Shown here: in pieces, positions 1 through 32,368 of the stretch | Layout of the letters: every line of letters starts with the position of its first letter | Position numbering within the stretch: the first letter of the stretch is position 1 | Translations under genes and position numbers: made by a program | Source of the DNA: a virus | DNA length: 35,331 nucleotides | IMG/VR virus record: IMGVR_UViG_3300002231_000757 | Coordinates: 1 to 35,331 of that record | Strand: one strand, 5' to 3' | Notes under the pieces: model-generated | The model's database searches: none | Told to the model about the DNA's origin: nothing | What the model saw: only the letters and a program-made list of their open reading frames with translations

Positions 1-1961
1 ACAATAACTGGTTCAAGTTTAGATACCGGACCAGTTACTCAAACAGCAACTCTAGGTGGGCAAGCCCTAACAATCACCAACTGGAACTCCGGTTCCCCAA
101 TAGTAGACATACCACTCCATATAAACCTTGAGTGGGGACAGACGTACCAGTTAGACGTAACAGATGACACAGGTACAGTTAGTCTAACAGGAGTGACATT
201 ATCCCCAGCTACAGGATGGGAACAAGTTACCTATGATGGCTCTACCCCACCTGTAGGAGACGTAGGCTTTGTCTCTCAGGCTCTGGCTGATCTTGGCATA
301 ACAATGGCCGCTGGTGACAGTTGGGTGTTTGAGAGCGCCACAGGCATGACAGTAGCCTTAGATGGCTCTGTTGTAGTTGATCCACCTGCTACCGTTACAG
401 GCAGTTATAAAGTACTGGGATGTAAGTGCTGGTGGGTAGTTCTGTCATTCATAATTATATGTGGAGAGAGACTGGAATATTACGCAGGTTTTTTAGGAAT
501 GCTAATCGTAACAATGTCATGATGGGTGAATTTCCTCTAGGGGATGCACCTGTTTTAAGTGGTGCAATTGATTGGCCAGCAGTACCACCCGGTGCATTAT
601 GGGTAGCAACTACTGGGAATGATACAACAGGAGATGGTACTGTAGGTAATCCATACTTAACAATTACTCATGGCACTTCACAATTGATATCAGGAGGCAC
701 ATTGGTAATTAAAGATGGTATTTATGATGGAGTCACTAATATAATTAATGATTATAGTTATACTATTCCTTCGGGAACACCCGGTAATTACACAACCATA
801 CGATCAGAAAATATATTCGGAGTCACCCTAACAATAACATCAGGTACAGCTAATCAGTGGGGACAAGTTAGAACAGATGGTAGTTATATTGATGTTTTTG
901 GTTTCATTGTAGAAAGAAATACAACAGGTGATTTCCCATCGTCACAAGTTGAATTAAACGGTAATCACAATAAATTTAGAAAGTCTATTGTTAGAAGGCT
1001 AGGGGTTATGGATGCCTTCGGTTCTTGGGTTAGAATAGGCCAAGATTCAACTTATAATTTATGTGAGGATGTGGCAGGAGTGGGAGTAACAAGATATGGA
1101 TTTGGTGCAGGTTCTAATACTGTATCTACAGGTAAATACAACATATTTAGGAGATGTGTTGGTAGGTTTGATATGACAGGCTCCCCATCAACCCAAAGCT
1201 ACTTTTAATCATTATGGTAATGCTGGGGGATTCGCAAATAGCCATCATATATACCAGAATTGTATCTCCTTTAGATGGCAATGAAGTTGGATATCATGGA
1301 GGAACAGATGGGTATAAATTTGGGGGTTTTTCTTCTATAAAATCATCTTCTGATGATATGTATGTTGGTAATATTGTATTAAATGAATTTGCAGAATATG
1401 GGGGCTTTTGGTTAGATGGACGCAATCATATTCTTAGGGATAATGTAGTATGGAATATCAAAACCATGCCTACTTATGGTCTTGTACCCCCTGACGGTGT
1501 ATGGGATAGGCCAACAATGTCGCCTATATTTGAAGCTTCAAACTTTACAGTGGGACAAACAGCGGGAACAGATATTGGTGGTGACTCAACAAATCTAAAC
1601 GTGACTAATTCAAACCTAAGCCCCGTTGGCCAACAGTATTTATTACAACCAAATTCCGGTAATACCACTGGTGCAACAATTCTTAAACGAGTAGGTGTCA
1701 CTGGTACTTTATATGGTGAGTCAGGATGGGACACAGTAACAAATGAAGATCTTTGGCCTTGGCAATATGAAGATAAAATAAAAGAAATATTTTCATTACC
1801 CAACCCTGTACCTACTGGTTATACCCCTGTGGTAAACGATACTTTTAAGAGGGTTTTGTGCCCCGGGTAATGATGCTTACGGCCAACCGCTTACGCTTAC
1901 ACGGTATATTTGGCAATATCTGGGCACACAAATTCCCGCAAGCGTTTATGGAGGGCCATAA
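1..1961 (+). CDS. Tail spike/fibre with right-handed beta-helix (5' partial, several frame breaks)
   Basis: Probably a virion adhesin that binds or cleaves surface polysaccharide. The gene is already open at base 1. Repaired, it gives about 651 residues, running through all three frames with breaks near 412-418, 433-437, 1194-1197, 1265-1272 and 1849-1857. The first 145 residues form a beta-rich module (IPLHINLEWGQTYQLDV, then DPPATV) repeated in the next gene. From about residue 190 there is a beta-helix domain starting ALWVATTGNDTTGDGT, a typical opening of pectate-lyase-like folds, with Asn/Gly-rich turns such as ILRDNVVWNIK. The C-terminus, LTRYIWQYLGTQIPA...YGGP, is a motif I know from the ends of such beta-helix proteins. 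The stop at 1959-1961 lies just before the next ATG. Lyase activity is inferred only from fold; no catalytic residues were identified. Confidence 0.75.
1950..1954 (+). promoter_or_regulatory. Ribosome binding site deciding the start at 1965
   Basis: GGAGG lies 10 bases before ATG 1965. It supports this ATG rather than the downstream GTG at 1993, and the reading MAFPVHESLGAVDF joins the downstream frame if the T5 run at 2003-2007 is really T4. Confidence 0.7.
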
Positions 1962-1964
1962 TAA

Positions 1965-4093
1965 ATGGCGTTCCCTGTTCATGAAAGTCTAGGTGCAGTT
2001 GATTTTTACATCTTTCGGCACTTCCGTAACGCCGGGTATTCCTGTTGGAACTTTATCCGGGGACACTTTATTAGCCATAATTTCGGCAGATTCAGCTAGA
2101 AATGTTGCTGCACCGGCTGGATGGACTGTATTAGCGGTTCAGAGTTATACGGCTAATTTTACTACATACACGTTTTTACGTACTTCTGATGGTGCTGACG
2201 TAGCCCCAACATTTGCTATTGATCTTGGTACAGAGCCAATGTTGGGGGTAATCGCTAGAATTACTGGATATGGTTCCCATACAACTATTTCAGATGCACA
2301 AACAGGCACTTCGCTAACATTCCCCGCTAATGGCACTGCAATAGCAGACACACTTGTTTATCGAATATTTGGCTGGGATGGTGGGCCTAATCCTAGTTTG
2401 GTTATGCCACCAACAAGTATCCACAACATGGGTACAGGTAGTGGTACAAATGATATTTGGACAGGCATATCGCATGAAAATGTAGCTAATGGACAACCTA
2501 TTGGAACAGCAAGTGCTACTGTAGGATCATCTGATAACACACTGTTAATAACGTTAGCTATCGCAGCGGCAATAGCGCCACCTGTTTTGTCGCTACCTAC
2601 GGCAGTTCAAACAGGCTCAACAACAGCTACGGGTACTGTCACAACAAACGTGGGAAATGGAATACTTTATTATTATATTTCAGCAAACGCTACTGAATCT
2701 TCTATAACAATTAAAACAAATGGTTTTACACAAGTTATAAACATTTCTGGGATACAAAACGTAAACGTCACAGGGTTAACTGCTTCAACAGCGTACTATA
2801 TACATTATATGCACAGTGATGTTGCTAATAATGACTCTAATGTTGTTAGTTCTACTCAATTTATAACTGATGCTCCTACTCGTTCAATAACAAACATAGA
2901 CACAGACAATGATGTACAAGCAGGGCAATCTACTTCCATAACAGGGGTAGTATTAAACTTACCTATCGTTAGTGTCACTTTAGGAGGCCAGCCACTTACC
3001 GTTACAGGAACCCCTACAGCCACCAACATAGACGTAGACATTCCACTTCACATTGATTTGCAATGGGGGCAGGTATATCAATTAGATGTAACAGACACTA
3101 CAGGCTTAATCAGCTTAGCTGGAGTAACCTTGTCCTCTGCTACGGGCTGGTCCAACATAACACTAGCATCTCTGCCTAATACAACTGCAACAGACTCTTT
3201 CTTTGAATTTGCTCAGACAGATAGCATAGTAGGCAATTTTACAGCAATTGTTGGGGATGTATTAGTATTTCAAGATTCTATTGGCCTCACTGTAAATGAC
3301 CAGACCATTCCTACTATAGATCCACCGTCAACTGTCTTTGGTGAATATAAATTTTGGAGTACTAGCTTAGGGGGGTATACACCTTTAAGTAGTTATACAT
3401 TTGAAGATGCTGGGTCAGTAGCTTCAGGTACTCAAGTTACTTCCTCTTTAGGTTCTATCTTATTAAAACAAAATATATTACGTAATGCTGTATTAGATTC
3501 TTTGCTACTGAAAGTAGGTATACCCGTTAGTACTTCTATTGATTCTGTACTAAGTAATGTTAATTCCGTTGTTGCAATTATAGATAGTATTTTAGTTACC
3601 TCAGGCACTTCAGTAAGTACTAATTTAGATTCTTTACTTAAGAAAACAGATATTCAGAAATTAGTCACATTATCTGCAATATTACAGAGCCAAAATAATT
3701 TTATTAGTTCTAACATGAATGCTATATTAACAAGCAATAATTTCGTTAATTCAAATATAAATTCTATTTTACAAAAAATGGTTACTGTATCTTCTGTATT
3801 TGATACCTTTTTAGTTAGTACAAGGTATTACTGCTATTGCAGATATAAATGCTATTTTGGCACAAACACAAAATACAATTGTTTCATTAGATGCTTTATT
3901 ACTAGCATCAGTGTCGTTATCCGCTAACATGAACGCATTAATAGCGACATTAACTATAAAAGTAACCAGTGACATTAGTGCTATACTGGATAATGGTTTT
4001 ATATCCAAGGACATAGCTTTGTTGGTAACAATATTAAAAAGTGTTACCATCGTTGATGTACCTAAAAACGATACAATTATTAAGGTTAAATAA
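1965..4093 (+). CDS. Long tail fibre: beta domains followed by a 15-residue-repeat stalk
   Basis: Structural adhesin of about 708 residues after repairing two breaks (T5 run at 2003-2007; near 3819-3825). By position: a beta-sandwich-like domain (about residues 1-200, with GTLSGDTLLAIIS), a fibronectin-III-like domain (about 204-300, LTASTAYYIHYMHSDV), then an IPT/Ig-like segment and the module shared with the preceding gene (about 303-455, VDIPLHIDLQWGQVYQLDV). From about residue 494 to the end a 14-15-residue repeat forms a probable trimeric stalk. It sits between the beta-helix spike and a small conserved virion protein. Threonine, serine and asparagine dominate, as expected for secreted-looking fibres. 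The family is not recognised precisely; the fibre role rests on architecture and context. Confidence 0.72.
3448..4075 (+). repeat. Pentadecad protein repeat in fibre stalk
   Basis: Coding repeat with a period of 14-15 residues. Core units read LDSLL, IDSVL, IDSIL, LDSLL, LSAIL, MNAIL, INSIL, FDTFL, then INAIL, LDALL, MNALI and ISAIL after the frame break. Aliphatic residues recur at fixed positions in each unit with polar Ser/Thr/Asn between, as in 15/4 coiled coils or a stacked-strand shaft. The DNA is diverged, so the repeat is old or kept at protein level. Confidence 0.75.
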
Positions 4094-4095
4094 TT

Positions 4096-4598
4096 ATGGC
4101 TGCTACCGTTCAAATTCAATGAAAAAAACACTGCGGGGTCAAGTATCTACAAATAAAACATCTGGAACAATTCGTTTTAAAACTGTTGATTCAGAAGTAG
4201 CAGATACTGCGAACCCTATTCCAATTCCTGCTTCAGGTTCTAATTTTAGTTTTGAAAAATGGTTACGCTTAACAGTTACTGTAGCTCCTACTACTCAAAT
4301 TGATAATCTATTAGTCTTTAGTGATGGTGCAAATGGGTTAGGTACAGGGATATCTGTACATCATAAAATAGTAGGTACTTTTGCTACACCTACTCAACCT
4401 GTTAATTCCGTAGGATTTACTGATTTCTTTGCTCTAACTAGTGGTGTACCAGGAAATGCTGATGCAACTAATGTTGGACCTTTCACAGGTACAGGGGATA
4501 TTGGGGATTACCTTGTATTGTTAATGGAAGTAGCCTCTACTGCTGTACAGGGGGCAACACCAACAGAACAGATAACCTTCAGCTATGATGAGAGTTAA
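4096..4598 (+). CDS. Small conserved virion protein near fibres
   Basis: About 166 residues after repairing two breaks (near 4111-4120 and 4135-4143). The ATG at 4096 follows the fibre stop directly (TAA, then TT, then ATG). The start reads MAATVQI...EKNTAG, then KTSGTIRFKTVDSEVADT, SFEKWLRLTVTVAPTTQI and GANGLGTGI. I associate this pattern (KTSGTxRFK, SFEKWLR, DGxNGLGTG) with a widespread small beta-sandwich protein encoded next to tail fibre genes of many prophages and aquatic phages; its role is undetermined. The frame without repair starts in the wrong phase at 4041, which is not the true start. Function beyond a virion or tail association is not claimed. Confidence 0.7.
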
Positions 4599-4600
4599 TA

Positions 4601-10654: not shown

Positions 10655-10660
10655 GTATTT

Positions 10661-12743
10661 ATGATTACTGACGAAAAAGATTTTGAAGTACTAGCACCAG
10701 ATCCTGCAGACTTAGGAGTAAAAATTACTAATTGGGAGAATCCACCTACAGTACGTAAATTAAAACAGGATTACACAGATGCCAGATCTAGTCATGACGC
10801 ACAAGTTTGTAAAATAGATACTTGGTTAGATAATCTAAATATTACTGGTAAAGCTAAACGTACTAAAACTGCTACTCGTTCTGCTATTTCCCCTAAATTA
10901 ATCCGTAAACAGGCTGAATGGAGATATGCTAGTTTAGCTGAACCTTTTTTAAGTACTAACGACATATTCAATGCAGCTCCCATATCTTTTGAAGATAAAG
11001 ATGCTGCTGTTCAAAAATGAACTGGTATTGAATAATCAATTCAATACAAAGATACAAAAAATTAAATTTATAGATGATTATATCCGTACAGCTGTAGATG
11101 AAGGTACTGTTATTGTTAGAGTTGGTTGGGATTTAGAGGAAGAAGAAGAAGAAATAGAAGTTCCCATAATTGAGTTAGTTCCTGTAACAGATCCTGTTAT
11201 AGCTCAACAACTAGCTCAGCAAGGTTTACCTCCTGTACAGGAAGTACAAACAGGTACTGAGATACAGAAACAATTGGTTACTACCAAGAATCAACCTACT
11301 GTAGAAGTATGTAACTATAAAAATGTAATTATAGATCCTACTGCTGAAGGTGATTTAGATAAAGCCAGTTTTGTTATTTATAGCTTTACATCTTCTCTTT
11401 CTGAATTAGAAAAAGATGGTAAGTACACTAATCTGGATAAGATAAGATTATCAGAAGCATCTGTATTAGGAGATCCTGATCATGCAACTGAAGGTGCAGA
11501 ATCTTTCACTTTTTCTGATAAACCTAGAAAGAAGTTCGTAGTACATGAGTATTGGGGATTTTGGGATATACATGGAACAGGCATTGTAGAACCTATCGTA
11601 GCAGCCTATGTAGGTGAAGTAATGATCAGATTAGAAGAGAATCCTTATCCTGATAAAAAACTTCCTTTTGTGTCAGCTCAGTACTTACCTGTAAGGCGTT
11701 CCGTATATGGAGAGCCTGATGGTGCTTTATTAGAAGACAACCAAAATATTATAGGTGCTGTTACCAGAGGAATGATAGATATAATTGGTAGAAGTGCTAA
11801 TGGACAAGTAGGATCACGTAAAGATGCTTTAGATGTAACCAATAAACGTAAATTTGATAAAGGTCTGGATTATGAGTTTAATACTAATGTAGACCCTAAA
11901 TCAGCTTTTCATATGCATACCTTCTCGGAAATACCAAATTCTGCCCAATTCATGCTAGAAACCCAGAATAACGAAGCAGAGTCCCTCACAGGCGTTAAAG
12001 CGTTTAGTCAGGGTATCAGTGGGGCTGCTCTTGGAAACACCGCTACGGGCATTAGAAGTGCCTTAGACGCCACTTCCAAACGTGAATTAGGCATATTACG
12101 AAGATTAGCAGAGGGAATTAAGCAAATTGGAAGAAAAGTAGTATCTATGAATGCTGAATTTCTTTCAGAAGAAGAAGTCGTAAGAATAACCAACGAAGAA
12201 TTTATTACAATACGTAGGGATGATTTGGCAGGAAATTTTGATTTACGGTTAACTATAAGTACTGCTGAAGCAGATAATGAGAAAGCACAAGAATTAGCAT
12301 TTATGCTACAAACTACTGCTCAATCTATGGGACCTGCTTTTGCACAGGTAATACTATCTGATATAGCCAAACTCCGTAAAATGCCTGAGTTAGCTAAACA
12401 AATTGCTGAATTCAAACAAGAGCCTGATCCCTTGGAAGTAGAGAAAGCACAATTAGAAATTGAATTACTTAGAGCACAAGTGGCTAATGAACAAGCTAAA
12501 GCTAACGAAAATGCTGTTGATGTAGGACTGAAACAAGCTAAGACTGTTACAGAACAAGCTAAAGTTAGGAACTTAGAGAGCCAGTCAGATCAGGTGGATT
12601 TAGATTTCTTAGAACAGAATGATAATGTAAAACATAATAGGGAAATAGATAAATTAGATATTAAGCGCAAGGGTGATTTAGACCTAAAGGCAGCTGATTC
12701 ACTACTCGCTCAACGAAATTCTGGAGAATCCTCTCCATTATGA
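10661..12743 (+). CDS. Portal protein, N4 gp59-like (frame break at 11013-11017)
   Basis: Forms the dodecameric ring at the capsid vertex through which DNA and the virion RNA polymerase pass. Repaired length 693 residues; N4 gp59 is about 760 as I recall. The break is an A5 run that should be A4, giving AAVQNELVLNNQFNTKI. Typical N4-like portal blocks are SPKLIRKQAEWRYASLAEPF, IDDYIRTAVDEGTVIVRVGW and, near the middle, GVKAFSQGISGAALGNTATG. An acidic patch (EEEEEEIEV) follows the first conserved region. The last 110 residues are a charged helical, coiled-coil-like tail rich in Gln, Lys and Glu. It heads the portal-to-capsid gene block. The unrepaired second frame appears to start at 10971, which is not a true start. 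Confidence 0.9.
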
Positions 12744-14326: not shown

Positions 14327-14338
14327 AGGTATAAGCCA

Positions 14339-15799
14339 ATGGCTAATGAAGCACAACTATATAACGATCCCGCTGGTGGGACCGATTCTAGTATCGGTGT
14401 ACAGTTCCGCACCGATCACTATCACAAGAAAGCACTTATTGAAGCTGCTAAGGAACAGTATTTTGGGCAATTAGCTAATGTACGTGCTATGCCTAAAAAT
14501 ATGGGTAAAACCATTAAGCAATATCATTATATGCCTTTGCTAGATGATCGAAACCTTAACGACCAAGGTATTGATGCAGCAGGTAATATTGATAAAGCTA
14601 ATGGTGCTGCTGCACAAGCTACTATCATAGCTACTGATCCTGGTGGTATGGATTGGTATTTTGTAGCAAGCGATGCTAATGCTATTTTTGCAACTGCGCA
14701 AACTAATGCTCAAACTGCTGCAGAAGCTAAAGTAGCTTCATTCTTGCTAATCCAAGGATATAACACTATTAATGATACTTTTGCTGAATTATCAGCAGCT
14801 GCTATCGTAGATGGTTGGGCATTTGCTGCTGTAGATATCAGATCAGATGCAGGTAACCTATATGGTTCATCTAAAGATGTAGGAACCATTCTAGGTAAAC
14901 TCCCTGTTCTATCTGAAACTGGTGGACGCAAGAACCGAGTAGGTCATAAGCGTATTGAACTCAACGGGACCATTAGTAAATTTGGTTTCTTTGATGAATA
15001 TACACAAGAATCTGTAGATTTCGATACTGATTCTGAATTGCAATCCCACATTGTCTCTGAATCTGTGAAAGCAGCCAATGAGATGACTGAGGATCAATTG
15101 CAAATTGATCTATTAGCAAATGCTGGTGTTGTACGATTTACTGGAGCTGCTGCTAATACAGCGTCTCTTACAGGTGGTCTTACACCAGCTGCTGGAGATG
15201 CCGTAGAATATGATGATTTAGTTAAATTAGGTATTGAGTTGGATAACAACCGAACACCTAAACAAACTACAATTACTTACTGGTTCTCGAATGGTGGATA
15301 CCAAAGTCGTTAATGCAGCTCGTTACATGTACGTGGGTTCAGAAATGATTCCTAGTATTATGAAAATGACTGATTACCATGGTGCTAGAGCTTTTGTTCC
15401 AGTTGCTCAATATGCAAATGCTGGCACAATTGCTAGGGGTGAGTTTGGTACTGTAGCTGATTTTAGGATTATTGTAGTTCCTGAAATGATGAAATGGGAA
15501 TCTGCCGGAGCAACAGTAGCAGCGCCAGATGGTGGAGAGAAAATTCCACTTTACTGGAAGCAAACTATGATGTCTTCCCTATGTTGGTTGTAGGTGATGG
15601 ATCTTTCACTACTATTGGTTTCCAAACTGATGGTAAAACAGTGAAGTTTAAAATCACTCATAAGCCACCTGGTAAAGAGATTGCTTCTCGTGACGACCCT
15701 TACGGTGAGATTGGTTTCCACTCTATTAAGTGGTATTACGGTTTTATGGCTCTACGTCCTGAACGTATTGCTGTAATTAAGACTGTCGCCGAACTGTAA
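14339..15799 (+). CDS. Major capsid protein, N4 gp56 family (two frame breaks)
   Basis: HK97-fold shell subunit of the icosahedral head. Repaired length 486 residues, with one extra base near 15274-15280 and one missing G at 15556-15557. Family signatures are [98 protein letters not shown] and the C-terminal [20 protein letters not shown]. About 87 residues (84-170, alanine-rich) lie between GIDAAGN and AGNLYGSS, where I recall N4 itself being nearly contiguous. ATG 14339 follows an AGAGGT binding site. A strong hairpin lies 22 bases after the stop. Confidence 0.93.
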
Positions 15800-17161: not shown

Positions 17162-19702
17162 ATGTCAGGTGCTGTAGACTTTTTTGTTAGTGTTTTTTCT
17201 GCTGTCGGACAAGCAATAATAGTTGTAGGTGAAGCTTTTGTAGGAACAATTGTTCTAGTACACCAAAAAATCTTCCAAGAAATTGTAGCGCCTGTACTAA
17301 AACCAGTATTTAGGATTTTTGGGATTAAAGACCAAACTATCCATTCAACAGAACTTTTCACACAACAAATAATTCCTACAGAATCCACTTATTTCACTAG
17401 AAATTTATTAGCAGCTTTAGCTAATAGTAGTGATCTATCTGCTGCCATAAAATTTGTATTACTTACCGGCCCAATATCAACTCTACACAGTTATTTAAAT
17501 TATGGTAAACAACATTATGTTAATGGTTTACCTACTATCTCTTTGAATGCTCATTTAATTAGTCGTACAGGCATACAAAATACATTAGATGCATTACATG
17601 GAGAACCTGTAACGCTATTATCTATTGATAAAGATACACCAAATGAAGAATATTGGTGTAAATGGCATGTTACTAAATTCCATAATTATGATGTAAAAAA
17701 CGATTTGGTTTTATTACCATTCACTTCTCCTGTATTTAAACAATATCAGTTCGATTCATGTGTGTTTAATGAGTTCACACAAGAATGGGATATCACTTTT
17801 GCTTCATTAATAGAGCAAATAGTTAATACAGTTACTGATGTAGATACAGTATTCAGAAATCAAAATTGGTGGGATGACACTACAATTACTACTACGATAA
17901 CTGATCATTGGACAGGTTTTTGGCTACCTGACATCGTAAACGTTAGTGTAAGTACCAGTTCCAGTATTTCTGAATTAGACGATAATAATAACTTAATAGG
18001 TTCTCCAGGATTAGTTTCCACAGAAACAGAAGTGATTAATATTATTAATAAAGAATTATACACTCTAGCTGAACACGCACCTAAATTTACAAATAATCTA
18101 TATTATTTTGCTAAATATGTTATTAATTCGGATTCTATAACACAATTATTATGGTTCTTGGATACTGGACAAGAACCAGAAGGATCTGAATTAGTAGATG
18201 ATGAATTCATTACAGAAGATTCTTTACTGGAATCTTTTCCAGTTTTGCTCTTAAGGAGAGCTGGCGTATCAATCAACACTGATACCAATTCAGAAGAGTA
18301 TAAGACTGGTAAAATTTTGATGGATAAATTAGGTATTACGGATATAGATACCTTTATAACACAAATAGAACAGAGTCCAGATATAGCACTTATTCAAGAT
18401 GCTTTTTTAACCATAGGTATAAATATTTATGGAACAGATGAAGCCAGCAAATCTTATCTATTTATGTTCTTTTTCTTTTTAAGTGCTTTTACCTGGAAAT
18501 ACTAAACAAGATTTTCTTTCATTGGATGAAGAATCTAAATCTCTAAATAATATAATTTATTCTGTTAATGAAGAGAATTTTAGAAGTGTTTTAAAATTCA
18601 GTTATATTGATACTACAGTAACTTCAAGTACCCTTAGACCATCAGGAACTATTGAAATAGATTATAATATTTTTTAGTAATACCGCTTCCGGTACAACAT
18701 TTTTAAGTAATGGCACTTCTAAAGGATTGGTTAATAGTAATATTGTATTAAGATGGCAACAAACAGAATCAACTTTAATTACCCTTACTGTTCAAGGTTT
18801 AGCTCTCTTACATTTCATTAAAGTAGATTCAAGTAATTTTGATATTAAAGTAATTGAATTAACAGATCCTGCTAGTACAGTTGAAGCAGATATTCTGGAA
18901 AGAAATAATTTTGTTATACCCCTATCAAATACTATATTAAGGAGTTTGCCTGTTAAATTTGCAGAACAAATTGCTCATGTATCCCCTCATTTAACTATTT
19001 ATGCACATCAAGCCGTAGAACTTGATTGGTATCAAACTACCTGTCATTTCTTTTCACTAGTACAAGTCCTATTAACTATTGCAGCGATAGTAATCTTTAT
19101 TTACTACACTAGGTACTGGTAGTGAATTATCAGCTGCATTATTAGAATTAGGAACACAATTATTGGTTCAATTTGGTTTAACATTAATTTTACGAGAAAT
19201 TCTTAAACATAATTTATCTGATTCAGAAAAAGCTGTCGTACTGGCACTCTTTGTAGCAGCTTCTGTAAGTACTGGTTTGGGTACAGGAGGTGAACTAGCT
19301 TCACTAAATAGTTTACTTCTAGGGATTAGTTCTGTAAGTATAGCAATAACCATAGATACTGAACTACGAGCTGATGAGTTACTGGAAGAACAACAAGCTT
19401 TTGAAGATCAAGTAACCAGTAGAGAAGAAGAGTTAGCTTTTGCTCAAGAATTTCTGGATAGTACTGTATTAGGTGTAGATACTTTTGATTTATTAACTGC
19501 AAGTAGAGTGACTATAATAGATACTACTATTTCACCTACTCAATTTTTTAATAAGAGTCTGTCTACTAATCTAGCACCTCTGGTATTAAGTGATACAAGC
19601 GTATATCATGCTAATAGATTAGATATCAATAATATTGATATTCAAACTAGTCAAACTAGTATTGATGTTAATAGTATTCTGGATATTTCAAATAAACTAT
19701 AG
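17162..19702 (+). CDS. Large internal/ejection virion protein candidate with hydrophobic segments (three frame breaks)
   Basis: Repaired length 845 residues; breaks lie at about 18460-18484, at the T6 run 18670-18675 and at about 19105-19115. It is read as one gene because the pieces join without gaps and give whole codons. The first 50 residues are hydrophobic (VFSAVGQAIIVVGEAFVGTIV). A second cluster near residues 630-735 includes VQVLLTIAAIVIFIYYT, a Gly/Ser-linked hydrophobic run, AVVLALFVAASVSTGLG and LLLGISSVSIAITI, followed by an acidic helix (ELLEEQQAFEDQVTSREEE). Central parts are mixed alpha/beta with aromatic blocks (EYWCKWHVTKFHNYD). It sits in the N4 gp53/52 region. Membrane-active segments in a virion protein suggest a role in genome and polymerase delivery; this is inference. 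Confidence 0.58.
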
Positions 19703-20199: not shown

Positions 20200-21561
20200 A
20201 TGGCTAGTAACAATATTAGATTTAACTCTGTAAATACAGGACAAACTTTTGGTAATCCGGGTGCTATCTTTGATAGAGCCTTTAAATCCTTTAGTGGTGG
20301 TATTAATACTATCTCTGGAGCTTTAAAAGGTTTACAGGCTGAACAAGTAAAGAATGAGAAGGACGCCACAGCGGAAGCTGTAGCCCGTATAAAGGGTATT
20401 ACTAACCAAGATGACCTGGATAGTACCTTAGCTGCTATAAACGCTTCTGATGGCCTTACAGGCAATCTAGCGGGTATAGATAAAACTTCTTTACTTAATG
20501 CTGCTACAGCCCAACGTCAAAATCTATTTAAATTACAAGATGATGCTTTAGCTAGAGAAGATGCAAGATTAAATAAAATAGATAAAGAAATTGGTAGAAC
20601 TGAAGCAGCTAAAGTAAGACAAGATAATGATGAAACCAATAGGCTCATTAAAGTATTAGAAGGAGCTTCAACAGCTGCTGAGGTTGACGCTTTAAGAAAC
20701 AATACCCCAAATAATTTTAATGACGCTGCTAAATTGCAAGCTTTATTTGATGCCAGAAGAAATGCTGTTAAAGCCCGAAACTTAACTAAAAATCAGGATG
20801 CTTTAGATAGTAGCATTCAAAATATTTTAGGTAACAATGAACTTCAAGGCACTGATTCTGAAACTTTTATCCAGCTATTTAGTAGAAATGCTAAAATTAA
20901 GGAAAATGTTTCTAATCTATTAACTAGTAAAGGATCCAATGGTAAGTTCCTTGTTCCTGCAGATCAACGTGCAGGACTTCAAAAACAATTATTAGCTAGT
21001 CTAAATGCTGGGGATATAGCTTTAGCTAAAAATTTACTTAAAGATTTTCCACCAGATGGTGTAACAGGATTTAGAGACACTGATGCATTTAAACGAGAAG
21101 GGGTGTCTTTAGGTATTTCTAGAAGTGCACTTAATCAAATAGCAAAAGAAAGTGAAAGTTTTTCAGGACAAGATATATTCAAACAAGCAAATGTTGCACA
21201 GGCTGCTGCAGATACATCTCGAAATAATCAAGTTGCTGATCTATTAGCAATAGAAAAAGCTAAAGAAAGTTTACCATCTACTGTTAGAAATTTAATTGAA
21301 AAACTATTTAATCCTACAACTGGAACGTTAAATTTAAATAGTTCTGCACAGGCAAATGCAACTAATGCACTTGCTATAGCAAACGAAGCAGGTTTTGCAC
21401 CTGCTGAATTAATCAGAGCTTTTCAAGCAAGTGTTGAAGACGATAAAGATTTTGATGAAGCTAAATTCGTTAATGCTTTAAACGTACTCGTAAACCCAAC
21501 TTCTACAAGGGACTTGAAAAAACTTAAAGTTTCTTCCTTCGGGACAATTTCAAGTAAATAA
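20200..21561 (+). CDS. Internal virion protein candidate, N4 gp51 position, 453 aa
   Basis: Intact frame; ATG 20200 lies 12 bases after the preceding stop with AGG upstream. The N-terminus is Asn/Phe/Gly-rich, then almost wholly helical and rich in Ala, Asn, Lys and Asp, including segments such as KDATAEAVARIKGITNQDDL, EDARLNKIDKEIGRTEAAKV and TAAEVDALRNNTPNNF. The long amphipathic helices resemble internal core proteins released during ejection. No catalytic motif, signal or membrane segment was seen. Its position directly before vRNAP matches N4 gene 51; co-packaging with the polymerase is inferred from that order only. Confidence 0.58.
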   Translation: MASNNIRFNSVNTGQTFGNPGAIFDRAFKSFSGGINTISGALKGLQAEQVKNEKDATAEAVARIKGITNQDDLDSTLAAINASDGLTGNLAGIDKTSLLNAATAQRQNLFKLQDDALAREDARLNKIDKEIGRTEAAKVRQDNDETNRLIKVLEGASTAAEVDALRNNTPNNFNDAAKLQALFDARRNAVKARNLTKNQDALDSSIQNILGNNELQGTDSETFIQLFSRNAKIKENVSNLLTSKGSNGKFLVPADQRAGLQKQLLASLNAGDIALAKNLLKDFPPDGVTGFRDTDAFKREGVSLGISRSALNQIAKESESFSGQDIFKQANVAQAAADTSRNNQVADLLAIEKAKESLPSTVRNLIEKLFNPTTGTLNLNSSAQANATNALAIANEAGFAPAELIRAFQASVEDDKDFDEAKFVNALNVLVNPTSTRDLKKLKVSSFGTISSK

Positions 21562-21575
21562 CCACTAGGTGTGTA

Positions 21576-24500
21576 ATGGAATTAGATCCTTTTACTAGAT
21601 TTAAGTTAAATGAACAAAAAGTTCACGCAGAAAAATTAAATAAGCAATTGAAATTAGCACAGGCCGCTGCTAAAAAAAGAGAACGTTTATTTTCTACATT
21701 TTCTCCCACTAAAACCAACGATATACCTTTAGGTTTTGGTATCAGGGATTTTGCTGGTTCTAATATTCAAGTAACACCTTCAACTACAAACAATCCACAA
21801 GATTTCTCTATTGATATAGAAGGTAAAGGAGCATCTCCTAGTCTTCTTGTTGATCTGTTAAGACGTAGAATTTCTAAAACATATTACGCCTACTAGTGAA
21901 GAAATTAATGCAGAAGATGCCATTAATACTTTAAAGGAACGCCAGAGAAAATTACTTAATGACTCATTAATTCAAAGCTGAGCGTGAGAAAACTTCTTTA
22001 GTTACAGATGCTGTAAAGAATACTATTTCAGGTAAATTATTAAATGCTGGGGGCATTTTATTATCTGGAGGTTCTCAAGTTATTGATGCTGTGGGTTCAC
22101 TGCCTTTTGAAGGTGTGAATGCTCTTCAAAATATTGGGATAAGTAATAATCAACGTAAACTTTTTGCTAGTATAAAAAATAAACAAATAGAACAGAAAGC
22201 ACTTCAAATAGAATTGGATAAGCTACCTCCTATAGAGGAGGATACTCCTGAAACTAGAGCACGAAGACGCCAGTTACTTGAGAGGAACTCCGCTCTCAGT
22301 TTTACTAAAGAGGAACAAGCATTATTCACTGATGGTATTAATCCAGATAGTGAAGGTTTACTGACTGAATCTACTTTTGATCAGCTACAAGAAATTGAAG
22401 TAAGAGATTCTTTTATAGATTCTTTTGGAAAATTATCAGAAGATGCAGGTAAACTGGTTAATAGAGATGTCTCTAATAAGGCATTAGGTACATTAGATAC
22501 TAAAAATAAAGAAGCTATAGCAGAATTTAAAAAAGGTAATAATTTAAAAGGCACTAAATTAATTTTAGAAGCTTTTAAAGATTTAGCTTTGGAAGACACT
22601 GAGGCTGCTATTGAGCTATTCTCTGAGTCTCTCCCTCTTATGGGGGCATTAGTTGTTTCTGGTGGCATCACCATGACAGCTTTAACTGCTCAATTTTTTG
22701 ATAAATCTGTAAAAGACTTTGAAAGTGAGAATAACAGATTACCTACCAATGATGAAAAACGTGGGATATTTGTATTGGGCACTGTATTTGCTACTTTAGA
22801 TAGGGTAGGTGCTATTGGTACAGCTCAAGCAGGTAAGATAGGTAAAACCATATTTAAAGGTTTAGAAGGAGCAGGTTTAAAACTAGGAAGCTTAAATAGT
22901 TTTTTGCTAAAGCCATTTACAGCAGGATTTAATACCACAGGAGCTGTGGCATTAGAAGCAGGAACTGAAAGTGTACAGAACGTCCTAGAACAGTTTGCAG
23001 TAAAGCAAGATCTATCTAAGGTAGATTTAGTAAAAGTTATAACAAATGGTCAATTAGGTGGTTTTGGTGGTGGTGTATTCTCTGCCCCAAGTGTGGCTGG
23101 TGCAGCTTTAGCTGTTCCAGCAGGTGTTGCAGCAAAAGGAGTGAATACTCTAGCTGAGAAACGGGATGCTTTCTTAAAAGACGCTAAAGATAAAAAAGAA
23201 GGTCAACTAGCTGCAGATCTTAAAAATAATACAGGTACTAGTGTTGAACTGGCTACTAGAATTGTTTCATCTGGTTTAGGTGATCTTAATGGAGATGAGA
23301 GGAAAGCAAGACTCAACAAATTAAGTGAACTAATAACTAAAGCCAGAAAGGAAGATCCAGAGAAAGATTTATCCGAATTAACTTCTGCATTCTCAGGTTT
23401 AGTGGATAGTCATTTAAATACGCTTGCAAAAGAAAAAGGAGAAACTGTTAAAGACAATTTAGCTACTTTAGCTGAAGAAACCACTGAAGAGAATAAAGAA
23501 GCTAAAACTGAAAGTTTTAACCAAATTGTATCCAGTATTAAAGATGGTACTGAGATTCCTTTAAAGCAACTTGAAGATACAGTATTTGGTAGTAAAGAAT
23601 TTGATGATGCTTCTAAAGAAGATCAAGACACCATAAAGAATAATATAGAGTTACTTACAGGGGCTGAAGAAGTACAAGAAAATATTCTTAAAAAAGATTC
23701 CAAGGGTTTTACTAGTATAACTACACATGCCAAGAATTTATTTAAAGCTATAGCTGTAGGAGATAAAACTGCTGCCTTAGCCACTGTTAAAGAATTAAGT
23801 AATCTAAGGCAACTACAGCAGGATAAACTTAAAGCATTAACATTAGCTGAAAAACGATTCAAGAAATCTAAAAAGCAAGAAGACTTTAAGGTTAATAGTT
23901 TTACTGGTTTTGGGGATAAGAAAACTGCTAGATTTATAAAGGAGTTTGTATCTCCTGACCTTGCTGCTATTAAATTAGCGGAGAAAGGAGCTATTGCTCT
24001 ATTCAATGATTCATTTGATGGCTCAGAGGTCGCTCCTGCACCGTTAGACTCTAAGGTAACCTTTGCAGGGGATACTACTGAAAACGTCTCTGAGGACACC
24101 TCAGACGTGTCTACGGATACATCTACTACAGAAACTAAACCAGTTACCAAGAAAACAGCTAAAACAGCTAAAACAGCTGTTACCAATTCTTCTAAAGTTA
24201 CTAAAGGTAAATTAGCGCTTAATAAGACTGGTAAAGGTGCTCTGACTAAAGTCCTAAATACCTTAAAATCACTCGGTGATAGTAAGAATAAATTACCTAG
24301 TAAAATTTTAGAGGATGAAAGAGCTGCTCAAATAGAAACCCTAAATAAAATTATTGGTGAAAATGGTACTAATGAAGTATCTGAAGAAGAATTTAATTCT
24401 ATATTAGAGAATTTTAAAATATTAAGAAAAGATTTCTTAGCTTTTGATACAACTAAATCAGGGGAAGAGAATGCTAAAATTGTTGAGTCTAAAAGAGCAA

Positions 24501-27500
24501 CTCAGGCAGCAGAAGCTAAGAAGAGAGCTGCACAAAGAGAAAAAGATAAAGCTGAGCAAGGAGTAGAAACTAAAAAAGTATCTGAAACTAAAGCTACTGA
24601 AGTTAATACAAAAGCAGGTAAAGACTCTATTGTAAATGAACAACCAATTGCAGATGAATTATTAGAGAATACCAATGAAAAAGAAGCTTTGATTGTTAAA
24701 GCAGCTAAAGCTTTAGTAGAAGCTGTCAAAAAAGGTACTAAAAAAATTATAGGATTACCTGTTGGTACAACTGTTAATACATTATTTTCTAAGAAAGCTA
24801 AAGCTCCAGTAGGTATTCTAAGTACAGTTCCTGATTTTTTTACCAAGATTAGGAACGATACTCTTAGTAGCTCAGTAATTACCCGGATCCTTGCATTAGC
24901 TGAAGAAGAGACTGCCGTACTTGAACCTCTTCAGAAATTTGTTAGTGCTTTTAGTAATACATTATCTAAGGCAATTCTTGAATTAGATTCTAATGCAGTG
25001 TTTCCAGAACAAATTAATGGAACCAGATCCTCCTTGGAACGTAATCCTTTATTATTCTTTGCAAAAAGAGATTCTAAAGGTAATTTAAGTTTACCTGAGA
25101 ACTTGGTCAGTATTATGAGTACTGTTGGGTTTAACTGGTTAGGTACTAGAAGCAGAGAAACACTTACTAATACAGCAGATGATATTAATAGCATTATAGG
25201 AGCACCTATAGGTACACCTATATCTCCTCGTAATTTAGCTACTTTTCAGAATGTAGGTATAGTTCGAACAGTATTGGCTGAAAATTTAGGTCGTCAGGTA
25301 GTTAAACAGTTGGGTATTAAAATAACTGACACTAATAATTCAGAGGTTATGGCTAAATTAGAAATGGCTGTTGGATTAGCCATGATAAAAACGATGGAAG
25401 ATAATAATTTAGTTGAAATTAGCTCAGTTTCTGCAGAAAGGATGGCTTCTGCAAATGGTATTGAAGATTCTGAAACTAATTTTGATCCTACAAAATCAAC
25501 TAATTTTGTACGTGCTAAATCTACAGCTAAAGTAATTAAAACTAAAAAAGGTAAAGCCAATAAACAAGGTAAACCTGTACTTATTAAAAGTATTTCTGAA
25601 ATAGAAGATTTATTGAGTAAAGCTCCTGAATTTTTAGAATCTTTCTTCGGAATTACTTCCAGTAAGGTATTAGCTGGTTTAGAACCTAATACAGAAATAC
25701 CAAAAACATTAAAAGGTAATAAACAAAAATTACCTTCTAAATTTAAAAAAGTTTTACAGAAGATGCAAGCTGTTAAATGGGAGATTAAACAGAATACTCA
25801 TAATGTTGTTAACAATATTGATAGAACCACTCTACTTAAAATGAGTGGTTGGGTTGATCTGGATAGTGAATCTTTTATTCATACTGATAGGCGTAAACAG
25901 ATAGAAGCAGTAAATGAGGAAATAGAACGTACTATAGATAATTATTTTCTTAATGTTAAGCATGTAGAAAATAATGGTGGATTAAAATCTCCTATCTATC
26001 TTTCCTATGAAGTATGGAAAAATTTCCGTATAGGCATAAAAAATAATACTTTAAATCCCCAAGGCAGTAAGATTATACGTCACCTCATAGGCGTTCGTTC
26101 CTGGAATACTACTGTAGGGGTTAAGGATAAAAGCAGAGTTAACTTTAAGTTAGCAGTAGCTGCTGCATTTGGTTTTGGCATAGATAAAAATAGTTTAGAA
26201 GACAGCTTAAAATGAATTTGAAAGATTACGTAAAGATCCTGTAATTAAAAAAGGAATAGCAGCCCTTAAAGTTATTAATAATCCCAAATCATCAGCTTCT
26301 AAAAAGAAGACTGCTGAAGAAGATCTTGTAGCTGCAGTTAAAGTAGGAGGTGAAGACCTACATAGCTTTGATGGCTTAGTAGCACTGGAAGCCTATAAAG
26401 TTACTAAATCTTTTGAAACTAATATAGGACTGGAGACAGATGGTGTTACTAATGGTCTAGCCCTTGCACTAATGCAAATGCCTGCTGTTTCTAATTCTGA
26501 GTTAGCTTCAGTAGGCATATTCGTCAATGAAGAAACTGGATTAACTTACCCAGAATGGAAGAGTAAACAAGGTAATCAGGATATTTATCAAAAATTAACT
26601 TCTGAGTGGCAAAGGCAGGTTTATTTGTTAGGACAGGGCAATAAAACTATTGCTAAAAAAATTACTGCTTTGGAGTCTTTAATTGGTGCTTTCGTAGATG
26701 CTGATAATCAAGTCACATCTCTCGGAAGACAGATGAGTAAAGACCCTGTCCTATTAACTAATTATGGTGCAGGTAGCGACAGTATTCTTGATAATCTTAC
26801 CCCTATAATTATAGAGAAAATCCAAATTGCTTTAGAAAAAGCTTCACAGGCTAAAGCACCTTCGTCGGTAGAAGCTGAAACCAAAAAAATAGTTACAGAT
26901 ATTTTTACCTTAGCAGGTAAGAAAATTCCTAAAGACTTAGATTTTTCAGATCCTCTTAATTTATCTATAAGTGCAAAATTAGAAACTGTTTTAAGAGGTT
27001 CTATACTAGAAATTTATGGTAATACTTTAAAATCAGCTCTTGAGAAAAAATTAGGATTCTTTACAGAATTTAGGGAAAAAATAAATAATTCCTTAAATAT
27101 CATGTTTGATATATTTAACAAGAAATTTGAAGACAGACAAAAAGCAGAAGTAAAAAGGCTGGGTAGAGAATTATCTTATCAGGAAATCTCAGATATATTT
27201 GATTCTCTCCAAAAATTTCAACCAATAATTAAAACACCTTTCTCTAAAGGAAAAGAAGATGGTCTGTTAGCAGTTAAACTAATATCAGAGAGAGATTACA
27301 AGAGGCTTAGGGATGCTTCTCAGGTTAATTATTCTAAAGGACAACCTAAGTCAGCTGTAGGAGTTATATCCCATACAACTTATCTTAACCCTGGTGTATC
27401 AGGCTTAGTGACAGCTACTCATGCACAGGATGGTTCTATTCAAACTAATATATTTGAGGAGTTTGAAGCTCTCAATATTCATGATGCAGCCATATATGGC

Positions 27501-30500
27501 ATAGCAGATGCTTCTGAGGGTACTAAAACAGCTAATAAAAGCTTCTGGAAAGTAGGAACTAATTATTCAGTATTTCAGGAAGTAACAAATGCTCTTACAG
27601 CTTTAGTTGATGATATTAATTCAGATGCAGGAGCCATGAAAGCAGCAACACAGTCTGTTAGAGCAACTACGAGAGCTAAAGACTTTCCTACCATTAGAAA
27701 CTTTCTAAATGAAATGGTTGATTTTAATGGTTCAGTACAAGCTGCTAGAGCAAATTTACTCAGTGAGGGTCCTATTGGTATAAACCAATTTGCTCTTCCC
27801 GGAGATAGTTCTTTTGAAGCCAATACAGAAGAAACGGTAGAAGTAACTGAAAGCAATATTAAAGAGATTACTGACTCAGTACATACTGAACAAGGTGAGA
27901 TAGCGCCTAGAACTGAACTTCAAATGCAAAATATTTTTAAAGGCATGAAGGATGCTCGTGAATTAGTAGCTTGGTTAAAAGATAATGCAACTACTCCAGC
28001 AAGAAGAGCAATTGCTGCACGCATACAAGAATTAATTCCTGAAGGTGTAACATTAAATTTAAATGCTAAGTTTCCTGTATTAGGTACAGCCAGCTTTAAT
28101 AAATTTAGTGATGAAAGACAGTTTGTGCCTGTATCTATTAGTATACTATCCATTGAAAATGCTGGTAGAAATAAAAATGGGGCTAATGAAATAACGTGGT
28201 TGCATGAATTATTACATGTAGCTACTGTTACTACCCATCAAAGAATAGTTGAAAGAGTTAAATTAACTGAAGAAGAATCTGAGGTACAAGATAACGTACT
28301 AGCAATAGATAATAAGTTAAAAAAACTTATTGCAAATATTTTAAACTCTCCTGAGTTTAATACAAAAGAATCTCTCACAAGATCTGATGAAGAAGTAGCT
28401 AGAGCTGTCGAGAATATGAGACTCTTTAAGAATGCTTTTAAAAATACTCAGGAAATAATTAGTTGGGGATTAACTGATCCTGATTTCCAGAGAGTATTAA
28501 GACAAGTAAAAGTAACTAAAACCAGGTCAGCATGGAATTCTTTTATTGAATTAATGCATGATCTACTTGGTATATCCAAGGATAATTCAGCATTAACTGA
28601 ACTAGTTGATCTATCTTCTCAGTTATTTGATGTAGCTATTCCAGATGGTCCCAACAATCATTTAACAGCTCTGGAAAAAGAAAGAGTTGCATTAGAAAAT
28701 GAAAGAGATGAAATTGATAAACAAATAGCTGAAAGTATTAATGATGAGAGCATAGATGTAAATGCACTTGAAATTAAAAGAAATGAGCTTTTGGAACAAA
28801 TTCTGGACAATCTTAGAAAAGATGATCCAGATAAAGTATTTAATTTATCCACTGAAAAAGAAGAATCAACTACTTTTAATTCTTCAAATGAAGAAAATAT
28901 TGATTTTGATAATTTTACTTCTCAATTTGATGAGAATCTTACAGCTAAGAATTCTGTAGAGATATTTGAAAAAGTTAAACAATATGGTAATAAACAGGAT
29001 TCACCTTCCCATACTGCACACCTTAGAAGCATATTAGAGAATATAGTTAATAAGGTATTGGTTAGAATGGACGCTCAGGATTTCCGTTTAAAAGTAGATG
29101 GCGATAAAACATTTGGAGCGGTAAAAGGTAGAAAAATATTTATTAATGCTTCTGCAACCAGTCGTATAAATAGCCATAGTGAAATGAGTACACAGGAGAC
29201 TCATGTCCATGAGTTATTACACACTACTATGGCTTACGCCATAGATAACTCTTTCTTGTTTAGACAGGAATTACTTAAAATATTTAACGGAGTTAAAGAT
29301 AGAATTACTCCTGATGATTTCTTACTACGTGATGAAAACGGTGATGTAGTAATTAAAAATTCCCTAGAACAAGAGAAAGCCAGTGCTACTGAGAGATATA
29401 ATTATATCTTTAATAATTCCAGGAATATTAAAACTAGTGATCAAACAACTAAAAATGCATTCTTACATGAATTTGTTTCCTTTGGTTTAACCAATGAAGT
29501 TTTCCAGAAAAAATTATCTTCTCTTATTGTTGATAGTACGGTTAAAGTGCCATTGACAGCAGCACAACGTATTAATAATTGGTTTATAAATGTACTTAAC
29601 TGGATTGGTTTTAAGTTTGAAAAGTTACGTAATACAGAAACTGCAGACGTTGCTTTACGTAATTTAGTTGAGCATACAGCTCACACCATGAATAAGCAGC
29701 GTAATAGCCTTCTGGATAAGATGCAGATTAGTCAACAGCTTAATGATAAAGCATCCCAGCTTGCTGTAAATAATATAGTTGAACCTTTTGTTAAATGGCG
29801 TAAAACCAAATTAGAAACATCTACTTCCAGAACAGGAAAAGTATTAAATGCTATTGCTGTGCTGCCTGATACTGTCAGAAGCAAGAAATTTAAAAAAGTA
29901 TTAAGAGAGTTTCTCAGAAGATTAAAAATTACTGAAGATGGTTTATTACTTTCCCTGGTAAGAGAAGTATCCAAAACATCTGTAGATGGTCTTAGATGGC
30001 ATGAATTACTGCGTAAGTCTAAAGATATTATTGACAGGGCACGTAAAACAGCTTCTGAAGAAATTATTGAAGAAATTGAAAATACATTTCTTACAGGAAA
30101 ACCTAACAGTAAGGAATCTACTGCTATTACCAAAGCACTGTTAAAACAGATTTGGTTACCCTTATTGGTAAATATAAGATTAAAGATATTCTTACAGACT
30201 CATCTGAACTGATTAAAGCTATTCAGGATACTCAAAAGGAACTTGATTCTTTTGGCCCTGAAAATAAATCTTATTACGTTAACCAAGCTAGAGGACTAGG
30301 TTTATTAATGGCCTCAGGGGTCGTAGGATTGTATGGATTGCAATTAAACGCTCAAAGTATAGCTACCCTACAGGGTACCCAACAGAGCCTTAAAGAGGGC
30401 TCCTCAAAGCAGGCAGAAGAGATTATTGATAGATTAGCTTCTCTTTACGCATTACAGAATACAGATACTGTGCATAAAGATACTCTCAGTACAGTAATGG

Positions 30501-32368
30501 AACGTGAATATGCTGAAAATGGGGATGATAATGGCATTATCCATTTGCTTAATTTACATGCTGGTGTAAAAGAAGAAGCCTTAAATTCTGTATTTAAAAA
30601 CCAAAAAGGATTAATGATTAAGGGATACACACATGAAACTATTAACCCTAATACGGATATTAAAATAGGCTCTAAAGAAGATGAAGCTGAAATGAACAGA
30701 GCAGGTTATGTATTACATGCTGTTCTTGATCAGGATAGATTTGACAGATCACCTTCTAGAGTAATGTACGTATCTAAAAACAATGCTTCTATAGCCTACC
30801 TAAAAGCTACAGCTTCTCTTACTAATAAAAACAGTAAGGGTTTTAGTTTTCTGGATGCGTATGAGTCTACTCACGCTATGACTGCTATAGATAAAGCAGA
30901 TGAAGCCCGACGTAAAATGAATGCTAAAGTTGATCCATTAATAGCAGCACAATTTAAAGGCACTGTTGCACTAAATACTACAGATCCTATTATGCTACCT
31001 ATCCGTAATTCTAACGGTAAGGTAACGGGATATAGATATGTTCTATCTGAACAATTTAAGGATGAAGTATTTGAGAAAGATAATAGATTTGATCATGTTA
31101 TGGGTAGTATGTGGGGTTCTCTTAAAGATAAGAAGAATTCTAAAACTATCAATAAAGAGGTTATTGATCTAGCCTATGAAGATTTCCAGAATGGGTTTGC
31201 AGAAGATCCTGATGCTTTCGTAAGAATAGCGCTAGATAGTGAAGATCCTAAATTCAGGGAATTGTATAAATTATTACCTAAAGATATGCGTAGAGATATG
31301 ATGGATGTCTTTGGTTCAGACCATATGTTTGTACGAAAAGAATTTGTTGATATTATTTTTGGATATCGAAAAGCTTCTATTGGTAATATTTTTAAAAATA
31401 GTAAAGCACCTTTAGCTAAATCAATAAACAGAGCTTTAAATTTAGGTAAAGTTAAACAGGCTGAACTTATTTGGCAAGAGATAGTTAATGTAGCCAAAAC
31501 TAATATTGTTATCAGGAACCCTGCAGTAATATCAGCTAATTTTATTAGTAATTTAGCTTTATCTTGGGTTAAAGGAGTTCCACCTGGTTATTTGATTAAA
31601 AATCAGGCATTAGCTTTACAAGCTCTAAGAGTTCATAGAGTAGATATCCGGAAATTATCTGCATTAAAACGAAAGGTAAAAATTGATAAAAACCTATCCA
31701 ATTCAGCAGTTACTGCTTTAAATGAGCAGATCTCACAATTAGAGAATAATATTGAGAATAATCCCGTTAATGAATTAATTCAGGAAGGTTTATTTCAAGC
31801 TATAACTGAAGATGTTTCTGATACTCGTTCTATCTACAATTACAGAGATAAATTAATTAATAAATCTAAAGTAATTAAGAAAATACCTAAGCCTATTAAA
31901 GCAGGTGCTGAATTAGCTTATTTATCTGAAGATACTACTATATTTAAGACTATGCTTAAAGCCACTCAATATAGTGATTTCATAGCTAGATTTGCTTTAC
32001 ACAAGCATAATACTGAAGTTAAAGGAATGACTAAGAAAGAGTCTATACAAGATGTAGTAGATGCTTTTATTAATTATGATGTACCTACCAGTAAAGAATT
32101 ACAGTACTTAAATGACATGGGCTTCTTTATGTTCAGTAAGTTCCTATTCAGAATTCAGAAAGTAATATTACAAAACTTTACTGAGAATCCAGCAAGAGTT
32201 CTTTCTTTATTATTAATGCAGGGTGCATTTGGTGGTATAACAGACATACTGGATGATAATTTAATTACAGGAAGCATCACTGGAAGAATGGGTTTCTTTA
32301 AAGGCCCATTTAATTCAGCTACAGATGTTCAGGGATTAAATATTTTATCAGGTATGTTTGGGTATTAA
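21576..32368 (+). CDS. Virion RNA polymerase (vRNAP), N4 gp50-like giant protein (four frame breaks)
   Basis: Single-subunit DNA-dependent RNA polymerase packaged in the head and injected to transcribe early genes. Repaired length 3,596 residues; N4 gp50 is about 3,500. Breaks are near 21862-21879, at 21973-21977, at 26209-26212 (A4 for A3) and near 30141-30148 (one base missing). Residues 1-1050 are a helical, Lys/Glu-rich ejection-type region with Gly/Ala-rich hydrophobic stretches. Residues about 1085-2000 are the polymerase core: T-motif Arg1484, motif A Asp1621 (ETDGVTNG), motif B Arg1717/Lys1721/Tyr1729, motif C Asp1969 (IHDAAIYG). Residues 2209-2631 hold two HELLH domains. The C-terminus is helical, ending at 32368. 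The third break falls inside the core between the T-motif and motif A, so it must be an artefact if the phage is viable. A GTG-rich SD (AGGTGTG) precedes ATG 21576. Confidence 0.93.
24152..24178 (+). repeat. Three copies of the 9-base unit AAAACAGCT
   Basis: Perfect tandem triplet repeat encoding Lys-Thr-Ala units inside the Lys/Thr/Glu-rich linker between the N-terminal region and the polymerase core of vRNAP. Prone to slippage, and probably a flexible tether. Confidence 0.9.
24829..27560 (+). other. Polymerase core of vRNAP
   Basis: Catalytic region within the giant protein. Landmarks by base: T-motif Arg at 26027-26029 in PIYLSYEVWKNFRIG; motif A Asp at 26439-26441; motif B Arg 26727-26729, Lys 26739-26741, Tyr-Gly 26763-26768 in RQMSKDPVLLTNYGAG; motif C His-Asp at 27480-27485. 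Spacings T-A 137, A-Lys 100 and Lys-C 248 residues compare with 135, 111 and 281 in N4 from residue numbers I recall (424, 559, 670, 951). All catalytic residues I know are present. Confidence 0.92.
28050..28640 (+). other. First HELLH metallopeptidase-like domain of vRNAP
   Basis: HELLH at 28203-28217 (EITWLHELLHVATVTTH) fits the HExxH zinc site. A Glu at 28452-28454 in QEIISWGLTDPDFQRVL lies 83 residues on and could be the third ligand, as in gluzincins. An amphipathic helix follows (AWNSFIELMHDLLGI). The order is the same as in the second domain. Confidence 0.7.
29040..29700 (+). other. Second HELLH metallopeptidase-like domain of vRNAP
   Basis: HELLH at 29208-29222 (ETHVHELLHTTMAYA). A Glu at 29469-29471 in LHEFVSFGLTNEVFQ lies 87 residues on, then NNWFINVLNWIGF. 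The three landmarks repeat those of the first domain, about 335 residues apart, so the two domains look like an ancient tandem duplication. Confidence 0.7.

Follow-up and report, generated by a model that had tools for sequence, protein, structure and literature searches.

A vRNAP gene of an N4-like phage read across four frame changes, with two predicted zincin sites

Described N4-type polymerases and the setting of the gene

The virion RNA polymerase (vRNAP) of Escherichia phage N4, gp50 (PDB 2po4, 3c2p, 9pnr and 9pnt), resembles the gene analysed here in gene order, length and polymerase fold, in motifs T, A, B and C and their spacing, and in having an HExxH domain (C1) after the polymerase and a long helical C-terminal region, with ~ 22-24% identity where BLAST aligns the two. 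It differs in its second zincin domain, which is degenerate in N4 and complete in the window, the window being the whole stretch of DNA that was analysed (the first 35,331 bases of the 57,895-base IMG/VR record IMGVR_UViG_3300002231_000757), and it differs as well in that the reading frames are broken in our record. The vRNAPs of Vibrio phages JA-1/phi 1 and of Pseudomonas phage LIT1 are among the best annotated matches of pieces 2 to 4 of the gene, at 24-30% identity; JA-1 keeps zincin site 2 only and LIT1 site 1 only, and both are single ORFs, unlike the gene in the window. The vRNAP of Vibrio phage vB_VhaP_PG11, also a single ORF, shows 33% identity in the C-terminal piece and is the only other member of our census in which both zincin sites are complete.

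The HExxH zincin domain of N4 vRNAP is already known (PMC5512222; PMC12633501). In the first of these, as far as its available text goes, 'one or more' such domains are reported for N4-like RNAPs, and the MPTase domains of polyvalent proteins are given an HExxH and a downstream Glu, as in the window; tandem homologous domains with alternate loss, unlike what is seen in the window and its relatives, are not described in that text (Iyer et al. 2017, PMC5512222). A 2025 preprint on N4 structure places HExxH in C1 and reports no significant homology for C2 (PMC12633501). Neither tandem homology nor alternate loss of the zincin domains was found described in the accessible sections of the open-access literature.

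The record displays the gene order of N4-like phages (Schitoviridae). One strand carries portal, gp58-like, gp57-like, capsid, gp55, gp54, gp53, gp52, gp51 and vRNAP, and the other SSB, Sak4, primase, exonuclease and DNA polymerase, so that the late-gene neighbourhood of gp50, in which portal, gp57-like, capsid and gp55-51 precede gp50, is found here. The locus has the homology, motif set, fold and gene order of an N4-type vRNAP, and the protein is a divergent member of this known family.

Reading the gene across four frame changes

An initial annotation had proposed that one vRNAP gene was concealed at 21576-32368 as several ORFs. This is confirmed by homology, codon usage and a model across the main break: the span is a single vRNAP gene of a Schitoviridae phage. 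It is open only when the phases are taken as 0, 1, 2, 0, 2. Stop-to-stop open frames are found at 21558-21893, 21971-26212, 26211-30209 and 30113-32365, together with a bridge in the third frame at ~ 21862-21978, and the four frame changes fall at 21861-21893, 21969-21978, 26208-26215 and ~ 30140-30165, the last being inside a 98-base ORF overlap and narrowed by homology and three-frame reading. The features, in positions of the window, are as follows.

21576-21893, + strand: N-terminal piece 1, phase 0 (ORF list, codon usage); ATG start after AGGTG; no homologue detected
21862-21978, + strand: third-frame bridge, phase 1, from frame change 1 to frame change 2 (three-frame reading, codon usage); no homologue
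21971-26212, + strand: piece 2, phase 2, 1414 codons; phrog_2206 E 2.8e-93, LIT1/JA-1 matches, core HMM positions 1-353
24758-27800, + strand: RNA polymerase module with frame change 3 read through, 1014 aa (P0001); AlphaFold2, 2po4, phrog_2206
26027-26029, + strand: motif T Arg (alignments), invariant in 67/67
26208-26215, + strand: frame change 3, from phase 2 into phase 0, with motif T before it and motif A after it (ORF ends, three-frame reading, relatives colinear across)
26211-30209, + strand: piece 3, phase 0, 1333 codons; phrog_2206 E 3.1e-122, core HMM positions 363-833
26439-26441, + strand: motif A Asp (ETDGVTNG), upstream of ATG 26472 (alignments), invariant in 67/67
26739-26765, + strand: motif B Lys 26739 and Tyr 26763 (alignments); Lys in 67/67, Tyr in 45 and Phe in 22
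27483-27485, + strand: motif C Asp (NIHDA) (alignments), invariant in 67/67
28203-28454, + strand: predicted zincin site 1, HELLH 28203-28217 and third-ligand-type Glu 28452 (alignments)
29208-29471, + strand: predicted zincin site 2, HELLH 29208-29222 and Glu 29469 (alignments), homologous to site 1
30113-32368, + strand: piece 4, phase 2, C-terminal region to stop; phrog_2206 E 4.6e-187
30140-30165, + strand: frame change 4, phase 0 to 2 (tblastn boundaries, three-frame reading, flanking codon usage)

The matches of phrog_2206 (vRNAP) to pieces 2, 3 and 4 are colinear, and the vRNAPs of LIT1, JA-1 and N4 show the same order of matches along the pieces. Piece 2 holds the remaining N-terminal domain and the first part of the RNA polymerase module including motif T, piece 3 holds motifs A, B and C, the two zincin domains and the beginning of the helical C-terminal region, and piece 4 is matched over at least 80% of its length by 440 phage records. 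Furthermore, a codon-usage score trained on the genes of the window chose phases 0, 1, 2, 0, 2 on either side of every break, with phase 0 of piece 1 scoring +37.9 (-56 and -92 for the other phases) and phase 1 of the bridge +6.4 (-42 and -10). No homologue could be detected for the N-terminal ~ 500 codons, the N-terminal pieces giving 0 matches against 184 vRNAP ORFs, and the evidence for breaks 1 and 2 hence comes from codon usage and from an AGGTG that resembles a ribosome-binding site and precedes ATG 21576. The joined span of 10,793 bases represents 3,597 codons and 2 bases, broken by the four frame changes of the record, which agrees with the proposed length near that of N4 gp50 (3,500 residues); intact vRNAPs range from 3,022 to 3,693 residues (n = 17, all single ORFs).

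The motif T Arg, motif A Asp, motif B Lys and Tyr and motif C Asp are present in that order, and their T-A, A-B and B-C spacings are 137, 100 and 248 compared to 135, 111 and 281 in N4. We take their counterparts in N4 mini-vRNAP to be R424 (T), D559 (A), K670 and Y678 (B) and D951 (C). Alignment with N4 and a comparison of 67 vRNAPs bear out that the catalytic residues are intact, with spacings near those of N4. Motifs T and A do lie in different frames, as had been noticed, with the break at 26208-26215 between them and motif A upstream of ATG 26472, and hence only the joined chain would make a polymerase. Modelling across the junction agrees with the earlier suggestion that only the joined protein could be active. 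Indeed, AlphaFold2, given an alignment of 66 relatives and with this one break read through, predicted the core at 24758-27800 with a pLDDT of 88.8 and a pTM of 0.89, block means being 91-97 around the junction, which falls within a confidently predicted helix (model residues 480-492). Since the alignment of relatives guides the model, the result indicates that the join is compatible with the fold and is not an independent proof of the sequence. When the PDB was searched with this core, as modelling of the repaired protein had been proposed at the outset, the best match was N4 mini-vRNAP 2po4 (E 1.3e-32, TM 0.75 over the query); the ten best matches were all N4 vRNAP, followed by mitochondrial and T7 RNA polymerases, so that the core has the single-subunit mini-vRNAP fold. 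The read-through core matched phrog_2206 at E 1.5e-162.

The expectation that automated annotation would miss the polymerase did not hold, given that PHROGs names three fragments vRNAP separately. On the other hand, Pfam gave nothing above threshold on the gene, with vRNAP domains below threshold only, and phmmer with single pieces or with the read-through core against PDB sequences returned no vRNAP, which was found by profiles alone. No near-identical relative was found in viral contigs or in bacterial and archaeal genomes. The vRNAP relatives were gathered with degenerate motif patterns, an alignment of nine vRNAPs being too divergent as a query. The frame breaks are of note solely as a warning, as essential genes of metagenome-assembled phages may appear fragmented and the polymerase here would count as several proteins.

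Cause of the breaks

One uninterrupted giant N4-type vRNAP gene with indel errors in the record is the best explanation, and in our judgement a highly probable one. We infer that the four breaks are almost surely small errors in the assembled record and not biology. The best argument for this, and one that supports the earlier reading of the breaks as sequence errors, is that the portal, capsid, primase and gp53-like genes are broken likewise. Frame-aware alignment to relatives mapped one break in the portal gene (window 10655-12743, ~ 11015), two in the major capsid gene (window 14327-15799, ~ 15275 and ~ 15519) and one in the primase gene (record 40972-43066, ~ 41383), all of which are single ORFs in relatives, while the gp53-like gene (window 17162-19702) runs through four frames that overlap or adjoin; the frame-aware alignment placed no break in DNA polymerase, exonuclease, Sak4 or gp57. 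The density is 4 breaks in ~ 11 kb for portal, capsid, primase etc. compared to 4 in 10.8 kb for vRNAP, and the shift is +1 in six of the eight mapped cases. The stretches tested are unsplit in 189 of the 191 loci where vRNAP was matched, and 137 ORFs contain the full T-to-C core. The two split vRNAPs, L268 (IMGVR_UViG_3300028209_000015) and L161 (IMGVR_UViG_2700988792_000001), show simple overlapping frame changes.

The breaks had also been ascribed to homopolymer positions, and this part stood less well. A run of four A is found at three of the vRNAP breaks and of three A at the fourth, which lends the idea slight support, but the frame is kept through every A/T run of six or seven bases in the gene (22 of 22), and hence miscalling of long homopolymers is not the simple answer.

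If the breaks were real and bridged by programmed ribosomal frameshifting, the polymerase would be made only by recoding. Three of the four breaks do lie in TAAAA contexts and the split relative L268 breaks within ~ 10 residues of the 26212 break. However, four changes of both signs in one gene, with more in portal, capsid and primase, the lack of any conserved signal and the absence of a split in the 189 relatives, by which the break is not conserved, make such recoding very improbable. The L268 record itself has several broken ORFs in 11 kb and the exact position of its break is different; its nearness to 26212 was hence judged to be chance and not a shared feature.

The record could also represent a decaying provirus or a defective genome with real pseudogenes, as several essential genes are broken, and we give this reading equally little credence. 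Indeed, the damage consists of frame changes only, no nonsense codons being seen inside the frames of the vRNAP, portal, capsid and primase genes, while catalytic and zinc-site residues are intact and codon usage is maintained up to each break. The record gave no recognisable host genes, and a search with close-relative patterns through 84,980 genomes of bacteria and archaea found no relative. Least probable of all is a gene truly split into assembling subunits like the N4 RNAP2 genes gp15/gp16, for although the pieces are of considerable length and an ATG (26472) lies within one of them, a second protein starting there would lack motif A, codon usage upstream of that ATG is of coding type, the junction is predicted inside a confident helix and no relative is so organised.

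Under the preferred explanation of one gene with indel errors, the real gene would be an uninterrupted ORF of ~ 3,600 codons, a late gene after the portal-capsid-gp55-to-gp51 block as in N4, and the frame changes would be neither programmed frameshifts, introns nor split subunits. By analogy with N4 biology, its product would travel inside the capsid and be ejected along with the DNA into the host, where the T7-like single-subunit polymerase module would transcribe early genes from hairpin promoters, with catalysis predicted to depend on Arg (T), Asp (A), Lys/Tyr (B) and Asp (C). The chain would also bear two zincin domains in tandem, each with its full HExxH...E set.

Tandem zincin domains

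What sets the protein apart, as judged from sequence, is solely that it has two protease-like metal sites that appear intact, almost every relative having one. Both are located between motif C and the C-terminal region, and the HExxH with a downstream Glu that characterises MPTase domains is found twice in this one chain. The HELLH-to-Glu distances are 83 and 87 residues, the Glu being part of a shared motif E-[FI]-[VI]-S-[WF]-G-L-T, and the two domains are homologous (hhalign E 2e-14). The degenerate second domain of other phages aligns to the intact second domain at E 4.6e-35 and to the first at 5.8e-5, which identifies it as the second domain. A model of the two-zincin region (701 aa) reached a moderate pLDDT of 69.7; each of its halves shows weak similarity to PRO-PRO endopeptidases (Z 4.0-4.5) and aligns to the N4 CTD (Z 12.5), and Foldseek gave no match for the model at E 0.001.

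The distribution of the sites was examined in 91 vRNAP clusters at 80% identity, gathered largely by motif A/B patterns and biased toward the carriers of these motifs: 82 have site 1 only, 7 have site 2 only and 2 have both (the window and Vibrio phage PG11). Among the rows listed, every HExxH is accompanied by the Glu, and wherever the second HExxH is missing the Glu of the second domain is missing too. We tentatively propose, with slightly more doubt than conviction, that the duplicated sites here are both catalytically competent and that other Schitoviridae descend from a double-site vRNAP of which each lost one site, the loss taking all ligands of a site together, falling on the second site in most phages and on the first in some, and sparing one of the two in every case. 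If so, one working protease site would be essential to the ejected polymerase and either copy could serve. Should loss of both never occur among the 84 clusters that have site 1 and the 7 that have site 2 only, the need for a working site is probable. The divergent sequence and its double zincin state may hence serve as a data point on the role of the metalloprotease-like C1 domain of N4 vRNAP.

Some minor features of the record were also observed. Single N bases occur twice, at position 35332, directly past the end of the window, and at 53091. A tail-fibre-like region (window 1-522 and 1993-4600) has ORFs in changing frames, possibly broken likewise, with a repeated domain and similar 'VDIPLHIxLxWGQxYQLDVTDxTG' stretches in both parts. 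An Rfam search of the window gave no match. Elsewhere in the record, a group I intron (RF00028, E 1.4e-21) is found on the minus strand at ~ 51430-52395 (L006 16099-17064), adjoining an HNH-like endonuclease ORF, and appears to interrupt a gp16-like RNAP2 subunit gene, the gp16 match being divided by ~ 770 extra bases.
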